Source: a bacterium
GTDB taxonomy: Bacteria; Pseudomonadota; Alphaproteobacteria; Rhizobiales; Aestuariivirgaceae
Reading direction: 5' to 3'
DNA: 40,517 bases
Assembly: GCA_022842165.1 (NCBI GenBank)
Contig: JALHQC010000039.1
Coordinates: 1-40,517 of the forward strand
The notes below the pieces were generated by a model. It was not told the origin of the DNA. It searched no databases and saw nothing but the letters and a program-made list of their open reading frames with translations. Below are positions 11,498-20,043 of this stretch, one piece after another. The translations under genes were made by a program, and so were the position numbers. How positions within the stretch are numbered: position 1 is the stretch's first letter; each line of letters opens with the position of its first letter.

Positions 11498-12385
11498 ATG
11501 CGTTACGCCATCGGCATCGATGTCGGCGGGACCAAGATTGCCGCCGGCATCGTCGCATTGGGTACCGGTCAGTTGCTTCATCGCCGTGAAGCCCCAACAG
11601 GCCGGGACCGTGGTGGCGAGGCCGTCCTGAATTCGGTCCGCCGCCTGTTGAGCGACCTTGCCCGTGTAGCAGGAGAGGCAGGCCACCACATCGATGCCGT
11701 AGGACTGGGCATTTGCGAAATTGTCGGCCTTGATGGACAGCTTCGCAGTGCCTCACTCATCGACTGGCGCCAGCTTGATGTCATTGCCACTCCTGATGGC
11801 CTTCCGCCGGTTCATCTTGTTTCGGACGTGCGTGCTGCCGCTCTCGCTGAATCCCAATTGGGGGCGGCTCGCGGTATCCGCGAGGCGATCTACGTGTCGG
11901 TCGGAACCGGTATCGCATCGGTGTTGCTGATCGACGGACGGCCCTATGCAGGCGCTCATGGCGCGGCACTGGTATTGGCATCGGCTGCCCGCGTGCCGAT
12001 GGGTGACGGCTCGGTCGCGTATCTTGAGGACATTGCTTCTGGCCCGGCCCTTGCGCGTCAGTACGGAAGCACAAACGGAGACTCAAGAATGGTGATAGCG
12101 GCGGCACAAGACGGCGACCACGAGGCGCTGTGTATCGTAAGAAACGCCACGTCTCTGCTTGGTGCGGCCATTGCCCAACTGGCCAATTGTCTTGATCCTG
12201 CTGCCATTGTCATCGGTGGTGGACTTGGCAGCGCGCCAGGCATTTTTTTCGAGACCTTGAGATCGCGTATCGAGGAGGGACTCTGGCCCGGCGCCGCTCG
12301 GCAGATTCAAATTTGTCCGGCAGGCTTGGGAGGCGATGCTGGAGTTGTTGGCGCAGCAATTTCAGCCGTCCTTCGCCAGCGATAA
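11498..12385 (+). CDS. ROK-family protein (sugar kinase) without the zinc motif
   Basis: This 295-residue protein opens with IGIDVGGTKIAAGIV, the ROK ATP phosphate loop. It carries SDVRAAALAESQLGAARG, which includes the catalytic Asp region, and VSVGTGIASVLLIDG. The C-terminal part has AIVIGGGLGSAPG. The ROK zinc signature (Gly-His followed by CxCGxxGCxE) is absent: the matching segment reads AALVLASAARVPMGDGSVAYLEDIASG. It is therefore a zinc-free ROK variant, either a kinase for a sugar such as glucose, fructose or ManNAc, or a divergent protein. ATG 11498 is preceded by GGAGCGGAG. It is the last gene of the operon. Confidence 0.82.
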   Translation: MRYAIGIDVGGTKIAAGIVALGTGQLLHRREAPTGRDRGGEAVLNSVRRLLSDLARVAGEAGHHIDAVGLGICEIVGLDGQLRSASLIDWRQLDVIATPDGLPPVHLVSDVRAAALAESQLGAARGIREAIYVSVGTGIASVLLIDGRPYAGAHGAALVLASAARVPMGDGSVAYLEDIASGPALARQYGSTNGDSRMVIAAAQDGDHEALCIVRNATSLLGAAIAQLANCLDPAAIVIGGGLGSAPGIFFETLRSRIEEGLWPGAARQIQICPAGLGGDAGVVGAAISAVLRQR

Positions 12386-12569
12386 CGAGTCCTGAAGACA
12401 GCGCTGCTTCGAATTGAGCAACTGGATTGGCGCGTCAACGAGTTCAAAGTCAGATTTATACTTTGTTGCCTCTGATGAGCTCACGGCCTGTTGCAAAAGA
12501 ACAGAGATCGCCTGACATCTGCCGCGCGCGGATAGGGTTCGGACTGCGGTCTGGCCGCCGCGCCTCTGT
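12386..12569. other. Non-coding stretch between ROK gene and tRNA-like remnant
   Basis: About 180 bp without a convincing gene, promoter or terminator. A small plus-strand open frame (12427-12627) has arginine-rich shadow composition and no Shine-Dalgarno sequence. The segment could be eroded DNA at the edge of an inserted block. Confidence 0.4.
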
Positions 12570-12598
12570 GGCGGTTCGAATCCGCCTTTGTCTCGCCA
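12570..12598 (+). other. tRNA 3'-end-like remnant (candidate attachment-site scar)
   Basis: GGCGG-TTCGAAT-CCGCC (12570-12586) forms a perfect T-arm with the canonical 7-nt loop, followed by TTTGTCTC and GCCA ending at 12598. The tail resembles the 3' end of tRNA-Ser genes (GTCTC-GCCA type) but is one base too long between T-stem and CCA. No matching acceptor strand, D-arm or anticodon arm lies upstream, so this is not a full gene. It sits 2 bp from the stop codon of the Rrf2 gene. Integrases often use tRNA 3' ends, so it may be an att copy bounding the mobile block (inference). Confidence 0.5.
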
Positions 12599-12599
12599 G

Positions 12600-13019
12600 C
12601 TACGCCGCGGCGCGCCGCAGGGGGTAGGCGCATTCCGCGAGTGTTGTCTTGTCGAGTTCGCTTAGGAACGCTTCCTCGGCGGCTTTCAGCTTCGATTTCA
12701 GCCGGCATTTGGGCGTCAGGGAGCAGCCGCCACCATCGCTTCCGAAACACTCCACCAGGGCGTGGCGGTCCTCGAGCGCGCGGACCACGGCGCCGAGGGT
12801 GATCGCCGCGGCAGGCCGCGCCAGACGGAAACCGCCTCCGGCGCCGCGCTGGGTCACCACGAAACCGGTGCGCGCCAGTCCGCTGACGATCTTGGTCAGA
12901 TGATTTCGGGAGACGTTCAGTTCGGTCGCCAATCCATCCGTGGTGAACAGGCGGTCCGGCTCGCCGGCAAGGCGCATCAGGGCACGCAATCCGAAATCCG
13001 TGAAGTCAGTGAGACGCAT
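12600..13019 (-). CDS. nsrR: Rrf2-family NO-sensing repressor, NsrR-like
   Basis: This 139-residue regulator has a winged helix at residues 1-60 (MRLTDFTDFGLRALMRLAG, then LNVSRNHLTKIVSGLARTG). The recognition wing is GAGGGFRLARPA. Cluster ligands match NsrR: Asp8 in TDFTD and Cys91, Cys99 and Cys105 in the C-terminal loop, giving the Asp/Cys3 [4Fe-4S] coordination known from Streptomyces NsrR. NO destroys the cluster and derepresses target genes. It is divergent from the haemoglobin/di-iron genes, and two NsrR-like sites lie in the shared promoter, so it probably represses them and itself. RirA or IscR are less likely given cysteine spacing and context. Confidence 0.85.
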   Translation of the reverse strand: MRLTDFTDFGLRALMRLAGEPDRLFTTDGLATELNVSRNHLTKIVSGLARTGFVVTQRGAGGGFRLARPAAAITLGAVVRALEDRHALVECFGSDGGGCSLTPKCRLKSKLKAAEEAFLSELDKTTLAECAYPLRRAAA

Positions 13020-13053
13020 GCTTGCTCCGCCCGAAAATGCAACGAGTGAAAAA

Positions 13054-13067
13054 GTATTTGCGATACC
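13054..13067. promoter_or_regulatory. Degenerate NsrR-type half-palindrome
   Basis: GTATTTGCGATACC at 13054-13067 resembles the TATTT-n-AAATA core of NsrR operators but has GCGATA on the right arm. It lies closer to the nsrR-like start (13019), suggesting autoregulation with lower affinity than the neighbouring perfect site. Both sites are followed by CGATT. Confidence 0.5.
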
Positions 13068-13086
13068 GATTAGCCGGATGTAAAGC

Positions 13087-13101
13087 GGTATTTCAAATAC
13101 C
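13087..13101. promoter_or_regulatory. NsrR operator (perfect palindrome)
   Basis: GGTATTTCAAATACC at 13087-13101 is a perfect 7-1-7 palindrome. Its centre TATTTCAAATA fits the published NsrR core (YATTT-N-AAATR). It lies 12 bp before the haemoglobin ATG (13114), where bound repressor would block transcription or initiation. Together with the degenerate copy at 13054 it forms the control region of the divergent NO-response genes. Confidence 0.75.
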
Positions 13102-13113
13102 GATTGGAGTCAC

Positions 13114-13602
13114 ATGATGGAAGCTGCGGCCCGCCGCGCGCAGATCACCGCCGCGATCGCCGCGGAGACGGGGATAACCGAGGACATGATCGATGCCCTC
13201 GTGCGGCGCTTTTACGGCCGCGTGCGCGGCGATGCGGTTCTTGGCCCGGTCTTCCAGGCCCGCATTGCGGACTGGGAACCCCATATCGAGCGGATGAAGG
13301 AATTCTGGTCGTCGGTGGCGCTGATGAGCGGGCGCTATCACGGCAAGCCGATGGACGCGCATGTGCAGCTGCCTATCGATGCCGCTCATTTCGACATCTG
13401 GCTCCGGATCTTTGAGGCAACAGCCAACGAGCTGTGCCCGCCGGAAGCCGCCGCGCACTTTATCGAACGCGCCCGCCGCATTGCCGAGAGCCTCGAACTC
13501 GGGATCGCCATGCGCCACGGCGTGCTGCTGGGCCGCGACGAGCGCTTCCACCTTTCCCCGACGCTTTCAGAAGCACAGAAGGACCATGCCCATGCCGGAT
13601 GA
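13114..13602 (+). CDS. Group III truncated haemoglobin
   Basis: This 162-residue globin probably detoxifies NO or senses it in the cytosol. Group III features are visible: FYGRVRGDAVLGPVF (B helix, Tyr34 at the B10 position), HIERMKEFWSSVALMSGRYHGKPM, and the proximal histidine His92 in AAHFDIWLRIF. The C-terminal region after residue 145 is an extra tail. Two in-frame ATG codons (13114, 13117) follow GGAG at 13105-13108; the second has slightly better spacing. The gene lies directly behind an NsrR palindrome, overlaps the next gene by 17 bp, and is co-transcribed with it. Confidence 0.92.
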   Translation: MMEAAARRAQITAAIAAETGITEDMIDALVRRFYGRVRGDAVLGPVFQARIADWEPHIERMKEFWSSVALMSGRYHGKPMDAHVQLPIDAAHFDIWLRIFEATANELCPPEAAAHFIERARRIAESLELGIAMRHGVLLGRDERFHLSPTLSEAQKDHAHAG

Positions 13603-14143
13603 CAGGCAGCCGATCAGCCACGCACTACCCACGCCTGCCGATCCCGCCGCGGATCTCTCCGCCGTGAGCACGCGGGATACCGCAACCCTCATCGCAGAAA
13701 TCCTGAGCCGCTATCACGAGGTTCATCGCCGCGAACTGCCCGAACTCGTGGCTCTGGCCCGCAAGGTCGAGGCGGTCCACGCCGGCCACGGCGCCGAACC
13801 CGTCGGACTGGCCGACGCGCTGCAGGACATGGTCGGGGACCTCGAGGTTCACATGAAGAAGGAGGAACTGATTCTCTTTCCCGCGATGCTGCGCCAGGAA
13901 GGCCGCCCGCTGTCGGCGCCCATCACCCAGATGCGCCACGATCACGACGAGCACGGCACGCATCTGCGCCGCCTCGCGGAAATCACCAACGGTTTCACGC
14001 CGCCGGATGGTGCCTGCCGCTCGTGGCAGGCGCTTTATGCCGGCACACGCAAGCTGGCCGCCGACCTGACCGACCACATCCATCTCGAGAACGATATCCT
14101 CTTCCCGCGGTTCGAAGCCGGCCGGACATCCGGCCCGAATTGA
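13586..14143 (+). CDS. Hemerythrin-like di-iron protein related to RIC/YtfE (no ScdA_N domain)
   Basis: This 185-residue protein matches the hemerythrin part of the iron-centre repair proteins YtfE/ScdA/DnrN. Likely iron ligands are His44 (RYHEVHR), His89 and Glu93 (EVHMKKEE), a His in MRHDHDEHG (118-123), and His164 and Glu168 (DHIHLENDILFPR). The N-terminal ScdA_N domain with its cysteine pair is absent: only about 30 low-complexity residues precede the four-helix bundle. It may repair NO-damaged Fe-S or di-iron sites, or bind NO or O2. Start ATG 13586 lies inside the haemoglobin gene, giving translational coupling; MPMPDD has an alternative ATG 6 bp later. Confidence 0.85.
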   Translation: MPMPDDRQPISHALPTPADPAADLSAVSTRDTATLIAEILSRYHEVHRRELPELVALARKVEAVHAGHGAEPVGLADALQDMVGDLEVHMKKEELILFPAMLRQEGRPLSAPITQMRHDHDEHGTHLRRLAEITNGFTPPDGACRSWQALYAGTRKLAADLTDHIHLENDILFPRFEAGRTSGPN

Positions 14144-14244
14144 ATCTCGCGATGCATTCCCCGCGCCGCACCTCGCCCGTTGCCGGCGGCAGGGACGCAT
14201 CCTGACCACACGCATCTGCTGCATGAAATCGAAAGGTGAATGAC

Positions 14245-14385
14245 ATGACCGACAAACCCGATAGCAAGAAGCCTGCCGCCGAACACGCCGTGGTGATGGA
14301 TCAGGGAAGTTCGCTGCTGCCGATGCTGATCGCCGGTCTGGCAATGATTACCATCGGAATGGCGATCGCCTTCGCGGTGATCTGA
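14245..14385 (+). CDS. 46-residue single-span membrane peptide
   Basis: A short gene with Shine-Dalgarno AGGTGA 5 bp ahead of ATG 14245. The first 20 residues are hydrophilic and Lys/Asp-rich (TDKPDSKKPAAEH). Residues 24-46 form one hydrophobic helix (LLPMLIAGLAMITIGMAIAF) that runs to the stop. It follows the di-iron protein by about 100 bp on the same strand, so it may belong to the NO-induced unit. Small single-span proteins occur among denitrification and NO-response genes, but the function is unknown and I do not recognise a family. Confidence 0.65.
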   Translation: MTDKPDSKKPAAEHAVVMDQGSSLLPMLIAGLAMITIGMAIAFAVI

Positions 14386-14603
14386 AGCCCACCGCGCGCC
14401 TGTTCCGGTTGAATGAACGCCGATGGGGCCTGACGGCGATGCCCAGTGTGCCGTGCTGAATGTCTGGTACTGCCGCGATATGCGGAGGTTCGGCATGTGC
14501 CGCCGCTTTTCGCGCGCTCGCCATGCAGGCCGCCATGCCCGTCGAGCTGATGATGCCGCCTCCGGCTGGAGCCCTTTTCGAACTGCACTGAGTGTAATTT
14601 CCT

Positions 14604-15587
14604 ATGACCCGCCGGACGGCATTTCTTCTGAACGACACGAGTATTTCCGGCCATCCGGGATGTGTGACCGTCATGTCTGTGATCCGCGAAAACCTTGAGA
14701 AGCGCGGCATATCGATTGCCGGAGCCTGGCCAGTGGGCCTGGACAAGACACTGGGCTTCACCCTTCACGCAAAGGCCGCCGCGGCTTCAGCCGTGATCGT
14801 GAACGGCGAGGGAACGATCCATAACACCGCGACGCGGCCTGGCGCGCGGCGGCTGCTGCAGTCGGCCCGTCATCTGCGGCAGCTGACGCCCGCTCCCATG
14901 TTCCTGATCAATGCCACCATCGAGAACCTGAGGGCGCAGGATTTCGGCGATCTCGCGATGTTCAGCCGCATTTTCGTGCGCGACAGCCGCAGCCGGAACT
15001 ACCTGCGCAGCCATGGCCTCGAAGCGGAGGTGGTTCCCGATCTCTGCCTTTCGGCACGCTTTGGCGCCGCACCCCGGACCGACCGGGTGATCATGACGGA
15101 CAGCGTACTCCCGGCTGCCAGCGCCCTTCTCAGGAAATGCAGCGCGGCTGCCGGCGCGACATTCCTGCCGATGCGGCGTCCGGTCGTCCGGTCGGTCGTG
15201 CAGTGGGCGCTCGACCCTGCCAGCCACAAGAGCAGTGCCAACCGTTACTTCAATGCGATCTCGAGCGCCAAATCCGTGGTGACCGGGCGCTTTCATGCCG
15301 CCGTCTTCTCGCTGCTGGCCGAGACGCCGTTTCTGGCGGTTGGATCGAACACGCCCAAGATCCAGTCGTTTCTTTTCGACGCGCTGGGCGACGAGAAGCG
15401 GATGGTGACCGCGGATTTCCTGAGGCAGGGGGCGATCACGGTGCCGGATCTCACGGCGATGGAGCTGCAACGGATCCGCTCTTATGTGGCGTCCGCACAC
15501 GAGCGGGCACAGGACATGTTCGATGTCATTGGCGACCGCGTCTTCAACGTCCCGGCGCGGAAGGCGGGAGCGCTGCATGCGGCATAG
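14604..15587 (+). CDS. Polysaccharide pyruvyltransferase-family protein
   Basis: This 327-residue protein has the features of the CsaB/WcaK pyruvyltransferase family. NDTSISGHPGCVTVM is the N-terminal nucleotide-sugar-type loop, VIVNGEGTIHN the GxG-H motif, and VTGRFHAAVFSLLAETPFLAV the conserved C-terminal GRxH motif. These GT-B-like enzymes transfer pyruvate from PEP onto sugars of surface polymers. It begins a three-gene unit on the plus strand, overlapping the GT29-type gene by 11 bp. No clear Shine-Dalgarno precedes ATG 14604. The acceptor sugar is unknown. Confidence 0.8.
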   Translation: MTRRTAFLLNDTSISGHPGCVTVMSVIRENLEKRGISIAGAWPVGLDKTLGFTLHAKAAAASAVIVNGEGTIHNTATRPGARRLLQSARHLRQLTPAPMFLINATIENLRAQDFGDLAMFSRIFVRDSRSRNYLRSHGLEAEVVPDLCLSARFGAAPRTDRVIMTDSVLPAASALLRKCSAAAGATFLPMRRPVVRSVVQWALDPASHKSSANRYFNAISSAKSVVTGRFHAAVFSLLAETPFLAVGSNTPKIQSFLFDALGDEKRMVTADFLRQGAITVPDLTAMELQRIRSYVASAHERAQDMFDVIGDRVFNVPARKAGALHAA

Positions 15588-16242
15588 ACCGGCAGACAGG
15601 GCGAGTGCGGGCGGCACAGGGCCTTTCGGCTATCTTCCCGCCGCCGAACCTTCGGCGGTTGCGAAGATCATGCAGGGCAAGTCCGTCGCCATCGTCGGCA
15701 ATGCGCGAAGCCTCTCGGCCTCCACAAGCGGAGAGGAGATCGAGGCTTGCGACATCATCGTCCGGCTGAATGCCGCTCCGGGCCTGTCGGCCCGGAGCCA
15801 TGGCGCCAGAACCACCTTGCTGGCCGTGAGCAAGGCCGTCTCGAAGGCCCGCCTCCGGCAGTTGCAGCCGGATATGCTGTTGTGGATGACGCCGAGGCAC
15901 TGGTATCAGGCGGTGCGCATGCATTTCTCCGGCGTGCCGGTGTGTTATTTCCAGAAAGCGTGGTGGACCGGCCTGAGCGCCAGGCTGAACGGCGCCCGCC
16001 CTAGTACCGGGATGATGACGGTCGACATGATGACCTGTCTCGGGACCTTCAGGGAGCTGAAACTGTTCGGATTCGATTTCTTTCAATCCGGCTCGCTGAG
16101 CGTCAGGCGCAGTTCCGCCCCGATCCCCCACGACTTCGCCCAGGAGCGCGAAATGATACTGAAGCTGATGCGGGACGACAGCCGGATCCGCCTCATGGGT
16201 TGCGGTGAAACCGGTGCGGACTTGAGGGAGCCGGCGCATTGA
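15577..16242 (+). CDS. GT29-type (sialyltransferase-fold) glycosyltransferase
   Basis: This 221-residue protein matches glycosyltransferase family 29. Sialylmotif L is recognisable at residues 36-80: SVAIVGNARSL, then GEEIEACDIIVRLNAAPG, then GARTT (compare VVGNSG, G-EID---F--R-N-AP, G--TT in animal enzymes). Sialylmotif S is at 141-167: RPSTGMMTVDMM, then ELKLFGFDFF. The motif VS His-x4-Glu is His185 to Glu190 in PHDFAQE. It may transfer a nine-carbon or related acid sugar from a CMP donor, but no donor-synthesis genes lie nearby. ATG 15577 is inside the upstream gene and the stop overlaps the exporter start (TTG 16239), so the three genes are coupled. No membrane anchor is seen. Confidence 0.78.
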   Translation: MRHRPADRASAGGTGPFGYLPAAEPSAVAKIMQGKSVAIVGNARSLSASTSGEEIEACDIIVRLNAAPGLSARSHGARTTLLAVSKAVSKARLRQLQPDMLLWMTPRHWYQAVRMHFSGVPVCYFQKAWWTGLSARLNGARPSTGMMTVDMMTCLGTFRELKLFGFDFFQSGSLSVRRSSAPIPHDFAQEREMILKLMRDDSRIRLMGCGETGADLREPAH

Positions 16243-17972
16243 AACTGGCGCGCACACCGCGAATCTTTTTCGGCTCGCGCGAGACCACGCCGCTTGTGGT
16301 GCTGTTGTGCCTGCTGCTGGCGAGCGTCGCCGAGGTGGCGAGCATCGGCTCTCTTCTGCCCGCCCTGACGGCGATTGCCGGGGGCGACGCGGCCGGTTCC
16401 TCGCCGGTCAACGGCTATGTCAGGTCGTTCCTTGCGCTCATGGGGGTGGAGCCGCTGCTCGGCTACATCATCGTGCTGGCGATCGGGCTTATGGCGCTGA
16501 AGTCGTTGCTGTCGTTCGCGGCGCTGTCCTATGCGGGCATCCTGGCGACGCGCGTCTCCATCTCGCTGAGGCAGCGCCTCATCAGCGCGATCTTCGATGC
16601 CCGGTGGTCGTTCTTCGCCGAGCAGAGCGGCGGCCGCATCGCGAATTCGATCGGCAACGATGCCGGCCGTGCCGGCGACGCCTATCTCGTCGCGGCCCAG
16701 GTCGTTACATATGCGATTCAGGTGATGGCCTATGCGGCGATCAACTTCATCATCGACTGGCGGCTGGCGCTTTTCGGACTGGCCGGCGGCGCCGTCGTGG
16801 CGGTGGCGCTGAATGGCGTGATCGGCGTGTCGCGACGCGCGGGCTACAGGCTGACGGATGGAACCGCGCGGCTGACCATGCTGATGACCGACACCCTCGC
16901 CAATGTGAAGCCCCTGAAGTCGATGGGGCGCCATCACGCGACGCGCGCGAAGATGAGCGAGACGCTGAAGCGCCTGCGCCGCACGCTCGTCACGCGCGAG
17001 ATCGCCAAGGCCGGATTGAGCCAGGGCAGCGATGTCGTCGTCGCCGTTCTGATCGGGGCCGGTCTCTATCTCGGCCACGCCGTCGGAAACACGCCCTTGC
17101 CCGAACTCGTGATCAGCGGCATCGGCTTCTTCCAGATCATCTCGATCACCACGCGCATGCAGCGCTTCCTGCAGCAGGCCGTGCAGCTCGAAAGCGCATA
17201 TGTGCGGACCGAGGAACTGGTGACGCGGGCCGAAGGGGAACGCGAGGTCAATCCGGGGGACCAGGAACCCGGGGCGGACGCGGGCTGCAGGTTCGAGCAC
17301 GTCGCGTTCTCGCACGGCGACAGGGAGCTACTGGGCGAGGTGACGCTGGAGATCCCCGCGCGCGGCATCACCGTTCTGCAGGGGCCTTCGGGCGCTGGAA
17401 AGACCACCATCATCGACCTGCTGATCGGCCTGCACCGGCCGGACCGCGGCGACATCTTCATCGGCGGCACGCCCATGCGGCAGGTGAACCTCTGGGCCTG
17501 GCGGAAGAAGATCGGCTATGTGCCGCAGGAACTCAATCTGTTCCACGCCAGCGTGCGCGACAACATCACCCTGAATGACGCATCGATCTCCGATGACGAC
17601 ATTCATGCGGCTGTGGAACAGGCGGGGGCGGGCGCCTTCATCGCGCGTCTGCCGCAGGGCCTCGACACCGACGTGGGCGAGATGGGGGTGAGGCTGTCGG
17701 GCGGCGAGCGCCAGCGCATCTCGCTCGCCCGGGCGCTGGTGACCAAACCCGCAATTCTCATCCTCGACGAAGTGACGAGCGCGCTCGATCCGGAAACCGA
17801 ATCGCAGATCGTCGCCAACATCGCGGGCCTCCGCGGCGCCTACACCATCCTTGCGATCACGCACAGGCCGGCCTGGACGCTGATCGCCGACCGTCTCTAC
17901 GACGTCTCGAACGGCCGCGTGACCCTGTTGCCTCAGCTCGCCTTCGACAAGGCACGGTTGCCGGCCGCCTAG
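16239..17972 (+). CDS. ABC exporter with fused membrane and ATPase domains (glycan/lipid flippase type)
   Basis: This 577-residue half-transporter has an N-terminal membrane domain of about six helices (first span near residues 18-45, others to about 305). The ATPase domain has Walker A GPSGAGKTT (382-390), Q-loop GYVPQELNLFH, signature LSGGERQR (486-493), Walker B ILILDEVTSALD, and the switch ITHRPAW. All catalytic elements look intact. It resembles MsbA/PglK-type exporters that flip lipid-linked glycans. The start is TTG 16239, overlapping the GT29 stop by 4 bp. Context suggests it exports the glycan modified by the two upstream transferases. Confidence 0.87.
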   Translation: MKLARTPRIFFGSRETTPLVVLLCLLLASVAEVASIGSLLPALTAIAGGDAAGSSPVNGYVRSFLALMGVEPLLGYIIVLAIGLMALKSLLSFAALSYAGILATRVSISLRQRLISAIFDARWSFFAEQSGGRIANSIGNDAGRAGDAYLVAAQVVTYAIQVMAYAAINFIIDWRLALFGLAGGAVVAVALNGVIGVSRRAGYRLTDGTARLTMLMTDTLANVKPLKSMGRHHATRAKMSETLKRLRRTLVTREIAKAGLSQGSDVVVAVLIGAGLYLGHAVGNTPLPELVISGIGFFQIISITTRMQRFLQQAVQLESAYVRTEELVTRAEGEREVNPGDQEPGADAGCRFEHVAFSHGDRELLGEVTLEIPARGITVLQGPSGAGKTTIIDLLIGLHRPDRGDIFIGGTPMRQVNLWAWRKKIGYVPQELNLFHASVRDNITLNDASISDDDIHAAVEQAGAGAFIARLPQGLDTDVGEMGVRLSGGERQRISLARALVTKPAILILDEVTSALDPETESQIVANIAGLRGAYTILAITHRPAWTLIADRLYDVSNGRVTLLPQLAFDKARLPAA

Positions 17973-18046
17973 TGCACTGGGCGTGCAAGTAAATTCAATT
18001 GCGAAGCAAAAAAATCGCCAGCGTCATAGCGTCCGGGCAACTTGTT

Positions 18047-18064
18047 GACGGTCAATTGACCGTC
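18047..18064. terminator. Perfect 18-bp palindrome between convergent genes
   Basis: GACGGTCAATTGACCGTC at 18047-18064 is perfectly self-complementary and can fold as a 7-bp stem with an AATT loop. It lies between the ends of the exporter (17972) and the SDR (18212), so a bidirectional terminator is possible. No real T-run flanks it, and a dimeric repressor operator is an alternative. Confidence 0.4.
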
Positions 18065-18211
18065 GGTTGCTTGTCTTATGACTTTTGCGTCTGATCGAGC
18101 CAGAATGGTTGCGTTGCGGGGAGGCAGCCACCTCCGCGCAACGGCGAGGGATGGATCGTCCGGTTGCTGGCCAGCGCTTTCCGCCGCGATTCGGGTTCAC
18201 GGCAGAAAAGT

Positions 18212-18961
18212 TCAGATCATGTAGTCGCCGCCGTTCATGTTCATGCTGGCCCCGATGAAGTAGGAGCCTTCGTCGGAAGCGAGCAGCAGCGCGGCGGGGG
18301 CAACTTCGCCCACCTCGCCGAACCGCCCGATCGGCAGTTCCTTCTTCTTGTTTTCCAGCCACTCCTGGGGCAGGCCGAGCAGAAGCGGCGTGTTGATGGG
18401 GCCGGGATTGAGGCAGTTGACCGTGATCCCGTCGCGCGCCACCTCGTAGGCGAGCGACCGTGTGAAACCCATGATGCCGGCTTTCGCCGCCACATAATGC
18501 ACCATGAAGGATGTGCCCTTGTGGGCAAGCTGCGACGACAGATTGATGATGCGGCCCCAGCGCTTGGCCTTCATGCCCGGCAATGCTTCGCGCGTGCAGA
18601 GAAAGGTGCCCTTGAGGTGAATTTCGATCATCCGGTCCCACATCTCGGTCGGCATGTTGACGAGTTCGCAGGTGGTGTCGATACCCGCGTTGTTGACGAG
18701 AATGTCGACCTCGCCCAGTTCCTTCCGCACCGTGGCGAAGGCAGCCTTGACCATCGCCTCGTCGGAGACATCGGCCTTCACCGCAATCGCCTTGCCCGGC
18801 GCGGCGATCTTCGCGGCAAACGCGGTGGCGCCGTCGAGGTTGATATCGAGCACCGCCACCCTTGCGCCCTCCCGCGCGAAGAGCTCCGAAATCGCAGCTC
18901 CAATCCCGCTAGCGCCGCCCGTCACCACGGCGATCTTTCCATCCAGTTTGCCCACGGCCAT
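18212..18961 (-). CDS. SDR-family oxidoreductase (FabG-like)
   Basis: This 249-residue short-chain dehydrogenase has VTGGASGIGAAIS at residues 13-25, Asp39 after the second strand (favouring NAD over NADP), NNAGID, catalytic Ser142/143, and Tyr156 and Lys160 (HYVAAK). The tail is MNMNGGDYMI. It is the last gene behind the Dpp-type transporter on the same strand. The AAGGAG sequence directly abuts ATG 18961, whereas the in-frame GTG at 18955 has the ideal 6-bp spacing, so translation may begin at GTG. It probably oxidises or reduces the compound brought in by the transporter. Confidence 0.86.
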   Translation of the reverse strand: MAVGKLDGKIAVVTGGASGIGAAISELFAREGARVAVLDINLDGATAFAAKIAAPGKAIAVKADVSDEAMVKAAFATVRKELGEVDILVNNAGIDTTCELVNMPTEMWDRMIEIHLKGTFLCTREALPGMKAKRWGRIINLSSQLAHKGTSFMVHYVAAKAGIMGFTRSLAYEVARDGITVNCLNPGPINTPLLLGLPQEWLENKKKELPIGRFGEVGEVAPAALLLASDEGSYFIGASMNMNGGDYMI

Positions 18962-18999
18962 CTCCTTTTCAATGTTGCCTTGTAATTCTGCGTGGCGGT

Positions 19000-20043
19000 C
19001 TAGCGCACACCTTCCGGTATGCCGGCGCCAAGAATGCGGTCTGCTTCCGCCTGAAACTGTCCGAAGTAGTCGATCGCCTGTTCCATCCGCGCCACCTCAT
19101 CGGTACGGTAACAGCAAACGGTATGGCCCGGGGCGATGGTTTCAACGGGCGGCATGATGCTTCGGCAGCGCTCCTCAGCCAGCGGGCATCGCCCCGCGAG
19201 AAAACATGCCTTGGGCAAATCGATGGGACTCGGGATTTCGCCCGCGAGTTTGATGTGCGTCAGCCGCTTGATCTTTGGGTTCGGGAGCAGCACTGACGAC
19301 AGCAGGCCCACCGTATAGGGGTGCCGCGGCCTGGCGAACAGGGAAGCTGACTCGCCCTGTTCGACGATCATGCCGAGATAGAGAACGGCGAGCCGGTGGC
19401 TCAATTGCCGGACAGCCGAGAGGTCGTGGCTGATGAACAGATAGGCCGTGCCCAGCTCGCGCTGCAGCCCGATCAGCAGGTCGATGATCTCGGCGCGCGC
19501 CGTCGGGTCCAGCGCCGACGTCGGCTCGTCGAGCACGATGATCTCGGGTTTCGAAACGATGGCGCGGGCGATGCCGACACGTTGCTGCAGGCCCATGCTG
19601 ATCTCGGCGGGGTAACGCGTCAGCAGCCATTCCGGCAGGCCCACGCGGCGCGCGGCCTCGCGCACGAGGCGTTCCCTGTCCTCTCGCGGGCGGCCCAGCG
19701 CGCTCAGCGGTTCTTCGATGATCCCATGCAGCCTGAGCCGTGGATCGAGAGACTCCGCCGGTTCCTGAAACACCAGTTGCAGCTTGCCGTGGATCTCAGG
19801 CGACCGCACCGAGCGCTTGCCACCCATCTCGAGGCTGTCGAACACGATGCGGCCGGCGGTCGGCGTGATGAGCCCCAGCAGGCAGCGGCCGATCGTCGTC
19901 TTGCCAGATCCGGATTCGCCGACTAGCGCCAAAGTCTCCCCCCGGTCCAGCGTGAAGGAGACATCGTTTACCGCGCGCACCAGCGACTTGCTTCCCGCGA
20001 CCGGGAATGTCTGGACGAGATTTTCCACGCTCAGCAGCGGCAC
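19000..20043 (-). CDS. Dpp/Opp-type ABC ATPase, DppF-like, with a degenerate signature motif
   Basis: This 347-residue ATPase is one of two for a peptide-type importer. Walker A is GESGSGKTT (42-50), the Q-loop is VFQEPAESLDP with Gln93 present, Walker B is IIVLDEPTSALD with Glu173, and the switch His206 is in FISHDLS. The signature is unusual: EISMGLQQRVG instead of LSGGQQQR. The C-terminal oligopeptide/dipeptide-transporter tail has the usual cysteine cluster (CFLAGRCPLAEERC, then CCYR). It pairs with the DppD-like protein encoded 6 bp upstream, whose defects fall in the opposite elements. Confidence 0.9.
   Translation of the reverse strand: MPLLSVENLVQTFPVAGSKSLVRAVNDVSFTLDRGETLALVGESGSGKTTIGRCLLGLITPTAGRIVFDSLEMGGKRSVRSPEIHGKLQLVFQEPAESLDPRLRLHGIIEEPLSALGRPREDRERLVREAARRVGLPEWLLTRYPAEISMGLQQRVGIARAIVSKPEIIVLDEPTSALDPTARAEIIDLLIGLQRELGTAYLFISHDLSAVRQLSHRLAVLYLGMIVEQGESASLFARPRHPYTVGLLSSVLLPNPKIKRLTHIKLAGEIPSPIDLPKACFLAGRCPLAEERCRSIMPPVETIAPGHTVCCYRTDEVARMEQAIDYFGQFQAEADRILGAGIPEGVR

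Follow-up and report, generated by a model that had tools for sequence, protein, structure and literature searches.

What would a sialyltransferase-fold protein of family GT29 do in an alphaproteobacterium, encoded between a pyruvyltransferase-family protein and an ATP-binding cassette (ABC) exporter? The question is raised by a three-gene cassette at positions 14604-17972 of contig JALHQC010000039.1 (assembly GCA_022842165.1; Rhizobiales, Aestuariivirgaceae), whose full 40,517 nucleotides we refer to as the window. The cassette encodes, in order, a PS_pyruv_trans (PF04230) protein (PST), a GT29 protein and an ABC exporter. We propose that it probably specifies a transferase dependent on the cytidine monophosphate (CMP) conjugate of 3-deoxy-D-manno-oct-2-ulosonic acid (Kdo) or of a nonulosonic acid, together with a phosphoenolpyruvate (PEP)-fold partner, and that it exports an acidic surface glycan. 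The three open reading frames (ORFs) lie where the initial annotation had placed them, and their coordinates bear out both of its overlaps:

14604..15587, + strand: PST of the HxG(C/S) subfamily, 327 amino acids (aa) (Pfam, model, fold search)
15577..15587, + strand: overlap of the PST and GT29 genes, 11 bp (ORF coordinates)
15577..16242, + strand: GT29-family protein, 221 aa (PF00777, A2 profile, fold search)
16239..16242, + strand: overlap of the GT29 and ABC exporter genes, 4 bp (ORF coordinates)
16239..17972, + strand: single-chain ABC exporter with membrane and ATPase domains, 577 aa, TTG start (Pfam)

Bacterial GT29 proteins, PF04230 proteins and ABC exporters are already known kinds; what is new is the repeated adjacency or fusion of GT29 and PST genes, the HxG(C/S) subfamily and the linkage to donor-synthesis genes. 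Searches of open-access full-text literature with narrow phrases found no paper linking GT29 genes with PS_pyruv_trans genes, and among the papers that these searches covered none described the repeated pairing, the subfamily with HxG(C/S) or the linkage to donor genes.

Membership of the GT29 family

The product of 15577-16242 falls within GT29 in both its sequence and its fold, on the evidence of its Pfam match, a profile match, the invariance of sialylmotif VS and the fold matches of its model. Its match to PF00777 (Glyco_transf_29) was significant (40.3 bits, cut-off 23), in agreement with the assignment made in the initial annotation. Because this match spans residues 35-86 only, the part holding sialylmotif L, the rest of the protein was checked independently. 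A profile of 50 aligned rows with the window's protein first (A2) matched porcine ST3Gal1 (2wml) at 2e-12 across motifs L and S, and all 50 rows individually matched PF00777 at E <= 0.001; Pfam checks of profile members covered these rows as a set, with L050 and L068 checked once more. Whole-genome searches with PF00777 gave a match in 0 of 14 control genomes. The sialylmotifs are located as follows:

15682..15774, + strand: sialylmotif L region, VAIVGN...RLN, with N42 and N65 (Pfam, alignments, profile match)
15991..16080, + strand: sialylmotif S region, GARPSTG...LFGFDFF (conservation in alignments, profile match)
16129..16146, + strand: sialylmotif VS, H185xxxxE190, candidate catalytic base (invariant in 50 A2 rows)

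H185 and E190 were invariant across all 50 rows, the window's included, and the residues of motifs L, S and VS were invariant or almost so. The AlphaFold model of the protein had a predicted local distance difference test score (pLDDT) of 84.9, and in a fold search PDB ranks 1-22 were all GT29 chains (ST3Gal1, ST6GalNAc2 and ST8SiaIII; TM-score to query 0.52-0.59). A GT42 (CstII) or archaeal HPPK fold was rejected, these starting at ranks 23 and 29, beneath the 22 GT29 chains. A chance motif match is ruled out by profile, fold and conservation. Compared with porcine ST3Gal1 (2wml/2wnb), the window's protein shares sialylmotifs L, S and VS and the fold but is shorter, has no recognizable motif III and stands in a bacterial operon; no membrane anchor was seen by eye (no predictor was run). 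An alternative in-frame upstream ATG at 15484 would extend the protein to 252 aa. Elsewhere, a GT29 domain is fused C-terminal to a methyltransferase domain in L050 and L068 (Pfam), and L070-L072, of similar length, are perhaps built likewise.

The initial annotation described the family as known chiefly from animals, passing over the plant GT29 enzymes and bacterial members that were reported in 2018 (PMC5811610). In the available part of that report, Petit et al. describe sialyltransferase-like GT29 sequences of Proteobacteria (19 of the 23 are alphaproteobacterial) that have no transmembrane domain and lack the motif-L/S disulphide cysteines, and they state that trees could not predict GT29 function in bacteria (PMC5811610). 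The window's protein belongs to the same family and shares with these sequences the lack of a transmembrane domain (by eye) and of those cysteines; no neighborhood analysis was seen in that part of the report. In plants, the available text describes RCKT1/MGP2, a putative GT29 CMP-Kdo transferase, as required for Kdo in rhamnogalacturonan II (RG-II) (PMC11288761), and use of a Kdo donor by GT29 therefore has a precedent. Its fold and proposed donor match our reading of the cassette, whereas it acts in plant pectin synthesis and the same text mentions no PST partner.

Pairing of GT29 and PST genes

Bacterial GT29 loci were gathered by scanning a genome collection with a ten-row alignment (A1), from which the best 80 of 92 confirmed candidates were taken; with those from a search of related genomes there were 107 loci in all. 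Iterated profiles were used for both GT29 and PST ORFs, and distant relatives may be present among the weakest GT29 members (e.g. L092, L094 and L100). There were 29 PST ORFs in 27 of the 107 loci, and 24 of the 29 lay on the same strand within 830 bp of a GT29 ORF or were fused to it. When places apparently fetched twice (equal ORF lengths and scores) were merged, 18 of 23 PST ORFs were adjacent or fused. The five outside this criterion were divergent and close (L058, L063 and L065) or farther off (L066 and L087). Fusions of GT29 and PST occur in two order-level relatives (L026 and L027) and in L084, a metagenome-assembled genome (MAG) of Verrucomicrobiaceae. Pairing was seen in Alphaproteobacteria, Cellulomonadaceae, Opitutales, Verrucomicrobiaceae, Spirochaetaceae and Gastranaerophilales, several of these being MAGs, and in the Gastranaerophilales case (L099) the PST match is weak, at 71 bits.

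The two families also co-occur at the level of genomes. Among 397 genomes of the window's order, with the best five to seven candidates scored per genome, 41 had a PST (profile A4, E <= 1e-6) and 29 a GT29 protein (A2, E <= 0.001). Both were present in 12, against 3.0 expected (hypergeometric p = 4e-6, kinship ignored), and of the 23 genomes whose PST match was strong (2e-30 or better), 10 had GT29, against 1.7 expected (p = 5e-7, kinship again ignored). The two genes were neighbors or fused in eight of the 12 co-occurring genomes (G000, G018, G105, G130, G140, G376, G378 and G412), and apart in three (G116, G260 and G275); G383 is left unclassed because its two genes fall on separate contigs. 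A quickly built GT29 tree, in which 36 of the 86 inner branches were open and long branches were common, grouped the window with L003 and L032; on it the PST label changed 12 times, compared to a mean of 19.9 after shuffling.

Closer to the window, a GT29 match at E <= 0.001 was found in three of 61 related genomes, all within the genus (3/37): the window's own (G000), G018 and G019. Conservation of the three genes together in relatives, which the initial annotation had named as a test, holds in the two other genus genomes with this GT29. Both G018 and G019 carry all three cassette genes in the same order (identity 51-53% for PST, 45-48% for GT29 and 57-58% for the exporter), with a PST/GT29 overlap of 4 bp in each (L003 and L004). 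Searched at 1e-15, their flanks had nothing in common with the window's except cross-matches between ABC-type ATPases, ORFs antisense to the cassette genes and one hemerythrin gene in G018. Since gene order is kept while the flanks differ, these data suggest that the three genes move between genomic sites as one block. The hemerythrin gene near the G018 cassette lies at L005 6031-6555.

Candidate donor sugars

The donor was sought in the gene neighborhoods of GT29 and PST. In two Cellulomonadaceae MAGs the order is kdsB-kdsD-kdsA-kdsC-GT29-GT29-PST:

L074, 3940-9243: Kdo/CMP-Kdo gene set, followed at once by two GT29 genes and a PST gene
L078, 3363-8666: the same arrangement

The kds proteins of the two loci are 78-93% alike, and those of L074 each reach a curated cut-off (TIGR00466, TIGR00393, TIGR01362 and TIGR01670). 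The L078 contig is chromosome-like in that it also bears dnaB- and pyruvate dehydrogenase-like genes, assigned by eye. By tblastn, and without a random-locus control, NeuA-, NeuB- or KdsB-like genes were detected at 1e-9 or better in 10 of the 107 GT29 loci (L040, L066, L074, L078, L083, L089, L091, L093, L102 and L105); this count omits L095, with a weak NeuA-like match (8e-5). Such genes adjoin or lie near GT29 in L066 (in the order NeuB-NeuA-GT29), L089, L093 and L105, fall within a GT29-PST run in L091, and lie about 5 kb from GT29 in L083 and about 6 kb in L040, the last a NeuB-like match alone. The genes near GT29 in L089, L091 and L093 are NeuB/NeuA-like. Locus L091 (10857-14539, a Spirochaetaceae MAG) reads GT29-GT29-PST followed by NeuB-like, NeuA-like and ABC-2-type exporter genes, the exporter identified by eye. 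A kpsF/KdsD-family gene follows GT29 in L035, L036 and L039, which form one clade in the GT29 tree.

PST genes that lack an adjacent GT29 gene were also examined. Of 15 such loci, 13 came from genomes without a GT29 match, whereas the genomes of the other two (L264 and L265) have GT29 at another place. Six of the 15, from four genera, had an ELM1-family gene within the fetched 13.5-14 kb (g74 twice, g39 twice, g94 and g1), and four of these neighbors were confirmed as PF06258; in GT29 loci ELM1 appeared in 1 of 82, a weak match. The donor-gene queries used above found nothing by tblastn in these 15 loci. The ELM1-like KdoT of Acinetobacter is described, in the available text, as a CMP-Kdo transferase with a GT-B fold, unrelated to GT29 (PMC12856342). 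In some genomes that lack GT29, ELM1-family genes are neighbors of PST genes of the window's subfamily. In L259, L260, L263, L269 and L270, all from genomes without a GT29 match, the HxG(C/S)-type PST gene is immediately beside the ELM1-family (KdoT-class) gene.

Collectively, the kds and neu linkage, the kpsF/KdsD neighbors and the proximity of PST to ELM1 point to a CMP-activated ulosonic acid as the donor. The initial annotation had found no CMP-sialate synthesis genes nearby; this stands for the window, where tblastn detected no donor-synthesis genes, but CMP-acid-sugar synthesis genes are present in the genome on other contigs. Its suggestion of a CMP donor made elsewhere fits this arrangement. 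The window's genome has one GT29, one PF04230 and one NeuB match, and encodes KdsB, above the equivalog cut-off, on another contig. Contig C2 carries NeuB-cupin, HAD and NeuA-like genes with an exporter gene directly after them:

L115, 8600-19319, and L116: C2 surface-glycan locus with two surf_polysacc genes (TIGR04396), NeuB-cupin fusion, HAD phosphatase, PseF/NeuA-like gene and ABC exporter; ELM1-family gene nearby

The best match of the C2 cytidylyltransferase is PseF, below cut-off. NeuB of the C2 type (at least 71% identity) occurs in seven of the 37 genus genomes, the window's included, and NeuB, HAD, NeuA and exporter genes recur together in G001, G002, G019 and G026 (fetched stretches of 18-19.5 kb).

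Between Kdo and a nonulosonic acid we place about equal weight, with a lean to Kdo. That the donor is CMP-Kdo, and that GT29 acts like plant RCKT1 as a Kdo transferase capping or building a Kdo-containing surface glycan, has a little under an even chance of being right. It draws on the kds sets of L074 and L078, the kpsF/KdsD-family gene adjoining GT29 in L035, L036 and L039, the occurrence of PST near ELM1/KdoT-class genes and the RCKT1 precedent, together with KdsB in G000 and, in both G018 and G019, a CTP_transf_3 top match that is similarly strong (126 bits). To our knowledge KdsB is near-universal in Gram-negative bacteria, and its presence therefore proves little. Moreover, the kpsF/KdsD neighbor may reflect a single inherited event because its three loci form one clade, as may the kds set of L074 and L078, and the genes beside GT29 in L066, L089, L091 and L093 are NeuB/NeuA-like, not Kds.

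We consider it possible, although somewhat doubtful, that the donor is instead the CMP-nonulosonate of the C2 NeuB-HAD-NeuA-like locus, the cassette and C2 being one pathway split between contigs. Among paralogs of the cassette exporter the one on C2 comes nearest (53% identity; the next is 28%), a NeuB match at 1e-10 is found in 13 of the 37 genus genomes including all three with the cassette, and other bacteria have NeuA/NeuB-like genes in the vicinity of GT29. The exporter link is only suggestive, however, because this exporter family is present in 35 of the 37 genus genomes (at 1e-100) and in several loci sits beside GNAT/NUDIX-like genes. Furthermore, G018 has the cassette yet only a distant NeuB match (26%), five genus genomes (G001, G002, G005, G010 and G026) have the closely related C2-type NeuB without a GT29 match, and the C2 locus has candidate transferases of its own, surf_polysacc and ELM1.

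A wider reading, which we offer tentatively, is a two-enzyme module found across several phyla, in which a CMP-ulosonate transferase (GT29 or KdoT-class) works with an HxG(C/S) PST of altered chemistry on Kdo or nonulosonate surface glycans. If true, it would include a Kdo-based surface glycan in actinobacteria, and bacterial GT29 would be ancestrally an ulosonate (Kdo-type) transferase and not a sialyltransferase. Actinobacteria are not known to make lipopolysaccharide. Should the Kdo gene set beside GT29 in the actinobacterial MAGs prove real, Kdo chemistry would reach further than the envelopes of Gram-negative bacteria. For bacterial GT29, whose function was unassigned in 2018 and which was proposed as the source of eukaryotic sialyltransferases, the gene neighborhoods provide a testable donor (CMP-Kdo or CMP-nonulosonate) and a testable partner enzyme.

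Partner enzyme, exporter and surroundings

The initial annotation called the PST a pyruvylation enzyme. Its family holds: the 14604-15587 product matched PF04230 at 56 bits, above cut-off, and the best PDB match of its model (pLDDT 87.6) was the pyruvyltransferase Pvg1p (5ax7, E 2e-8, TM 0.51), with the pyruvyltransferase WbbZ third. Pyruvylation itself is weakened by the residues at the following sites:

14652..14663, + strand: HPGC motif (H17, G19, C20), replacing NxGD (alignments; C20 is at the Pvg1p D106 position via bridging L182)
14979..14981, + strand: R126, at Pvg1p R217 (RDxxS motif) (alignments)
15288..15296, + strand: R229-F-H231, at Pvg1p R337 and a conserved His (alignments)

Positions were transferred through L182, a Pvg1p-like protein from G018 whose alignment to the Pvg1p chain reached 4e-28; adding a constant offset of 53 to chain positions 53 (the GD-motif Asp), 164 and 284 gives D106, R217 and R337. 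In Pvg1p, R217 and R337 are modelled as PEP contacts. The available texts give NxGD, RxxxS/T and H as conserved motifs of characterized pyruvyltransferases (PMC10629545), and report that Pvg1p D106A was nearly inactive (PMC4872226). The window's PST keeps R126 and R229 and has C20 where the essential Asp is expected. Of seven other PF04230 proteins aligned for comparison, five had NxGD, L185 was unaligned at the motif and L188 had HHGS; L188 belongs to the window's subfamily, with an A4 score of 205 bits at the same place (L207).

Across the 13 rows of alignment A4, H17 and G19 were invariant and C20 almost so, and R126, S130, R229 and H231 were invariant. The HxG(C/S) motif was found in 13 of 13 A4 rows, a count that excludes four rows because A4 omits L058, L065, L091 and L099 from the 17-row A3, and in 15 of 15 further loci. 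All 17 A3 rows matched PF04230 in Pfam; at the motif, L091 has NFGC, L058 and L065 have YDGP, and L099 is unaligned. Among GT29-adjacent proteins, L022 is an exception with NxGD, and L021 is unreadable at the motif, its N-terminus being cut.

Judged on these residues, PEP binding may persist, yet transfer of a pyruvyl group should not be taken for granted, because HxG(C/S) stands where the known ketal pyruvyltransferases Pvg1p, WbbZ and CsaB, which share the PF04230 domain, GT-B-like fold and Arg and His motifs, have NxGD. That the PST is nevertheless an ordinary PEP-dependent ketal pyruvyltransferase is an outcome we regard as possible but somewhat doubtful. It would account for the family and structure matches, for both PEP-contacting Arg positions and the His being kept, and for the NxGD of L022; in addition, the available text of one report describes pyruvylated Kdn in Promicromonospora, an actinobacterium (PMC6801904). 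The consistency of HxG(C/S) across the subfamily and the near-inactivity of Pvg1p D106A speak against it. The subfamily serves as a warning that some annotated pyruvyltransferase genes may do something else.

The exporter has ABC_membrane and ABC_tran domains, both above Pfam cut-off. It shares the single-chain architecture of HepA-, MsbA- and PglK-type exporters, with significant matches, although among the NCBIfam matches listed (25 of 197 models) its scores fall far under their equivalog cut-offs (241.8 vs 725 bits for HepA, 214.2 vs 602 for MsbA and 160.4 vs 1000 for PglK). Its value as a marker of acid-sugar export is weakened, because the family is near-ubiquitous in the genus and visual inspection of 14 exporter loci, with no profile search, showed GNAT/NUDIX-like neighbors in several; the exporter family therefore lacks specificity for acid sugars.

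Under the CMP-ulosonate reading that we favor, the cassette would be an accessory one, and the GT29 protein a soluble or peripheral inverting transferase on the cytoplasmic side of the membrane. It would add an acid sugar to a glycan that is linked to a lipid or associated with the membrane in another way, drawing on CMP-Kdo or on the CMP-nonulosonate that the NeuB/NeuA-like locus of this genome would supply. H185 would serve as the base, presumably as in the GT29 enzyme ST3Gal1. We infer that the PST acts on the same glycan: its PEP-contacting arginines are kept and its acceptor site is unlike that of known pyruvyltransferases, and its reaction may be pyruvylation, of the acid sugar or of a neighboring one, or the transfer of some different group. 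The product would then be flipped or exported by the ABC protein.

Several observations weigh against this proposal. PST was not found in 80 of the 107 GT29 loci within the fetched stretch, none of the 26 rows of a large, mainly Rhodobacteraceae clade of the tree had one there, and 97 loci had no NeuA, NeuB or KdsB match at 1e-9 in that stretch. Thirteen of the 23 strong-PST genomes had no GT29 match among the best few candidates scored, and the Cellulomonadaceae loci, being from MAGs, could be misbinned. In the PST fold search, many other GT-B proteins, including the Kdo transferase WaaA and UDP-GlcNAc 2-epimerases, scored almost equally. The absence of donor genes from the window, the distant NeuB of G018, the transferases of C2 and the commonness of the exporter family belong to the same side, as does sialylmotif III, of which by-eye inspection of the alignment between motif S and H185 showed none; bacterial GT29 proteins retain it according to the available part of the 2018 report (PMC5811610). 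That the GT29 protein has ceased to be a transferase and plays a regulatory or scaffold role is very unlikely: the missing motif III and a length of 221 aa, compared to 265-323 residues in the listed GT29 chains, would fit, but the motif L, S and VS residues are conserved in 50 rows and the model is confidently GT29-like.

The cassette does not stand out as a recent foreign island. Its GC content is 65.4%, against 62.9% for the whole window, its third-position GC (0.79-0.87) overlaps that of seven other measured window genes (0.66-0.84), and no long repeats framing it were found in window 12000-19000; yet the flanks vary among genomes. Upstream, the cassette is adjoined by genes for an Rrf2-type regulator, a bacterial globin and a hemerythrin (window 12600-14143, Pfam).

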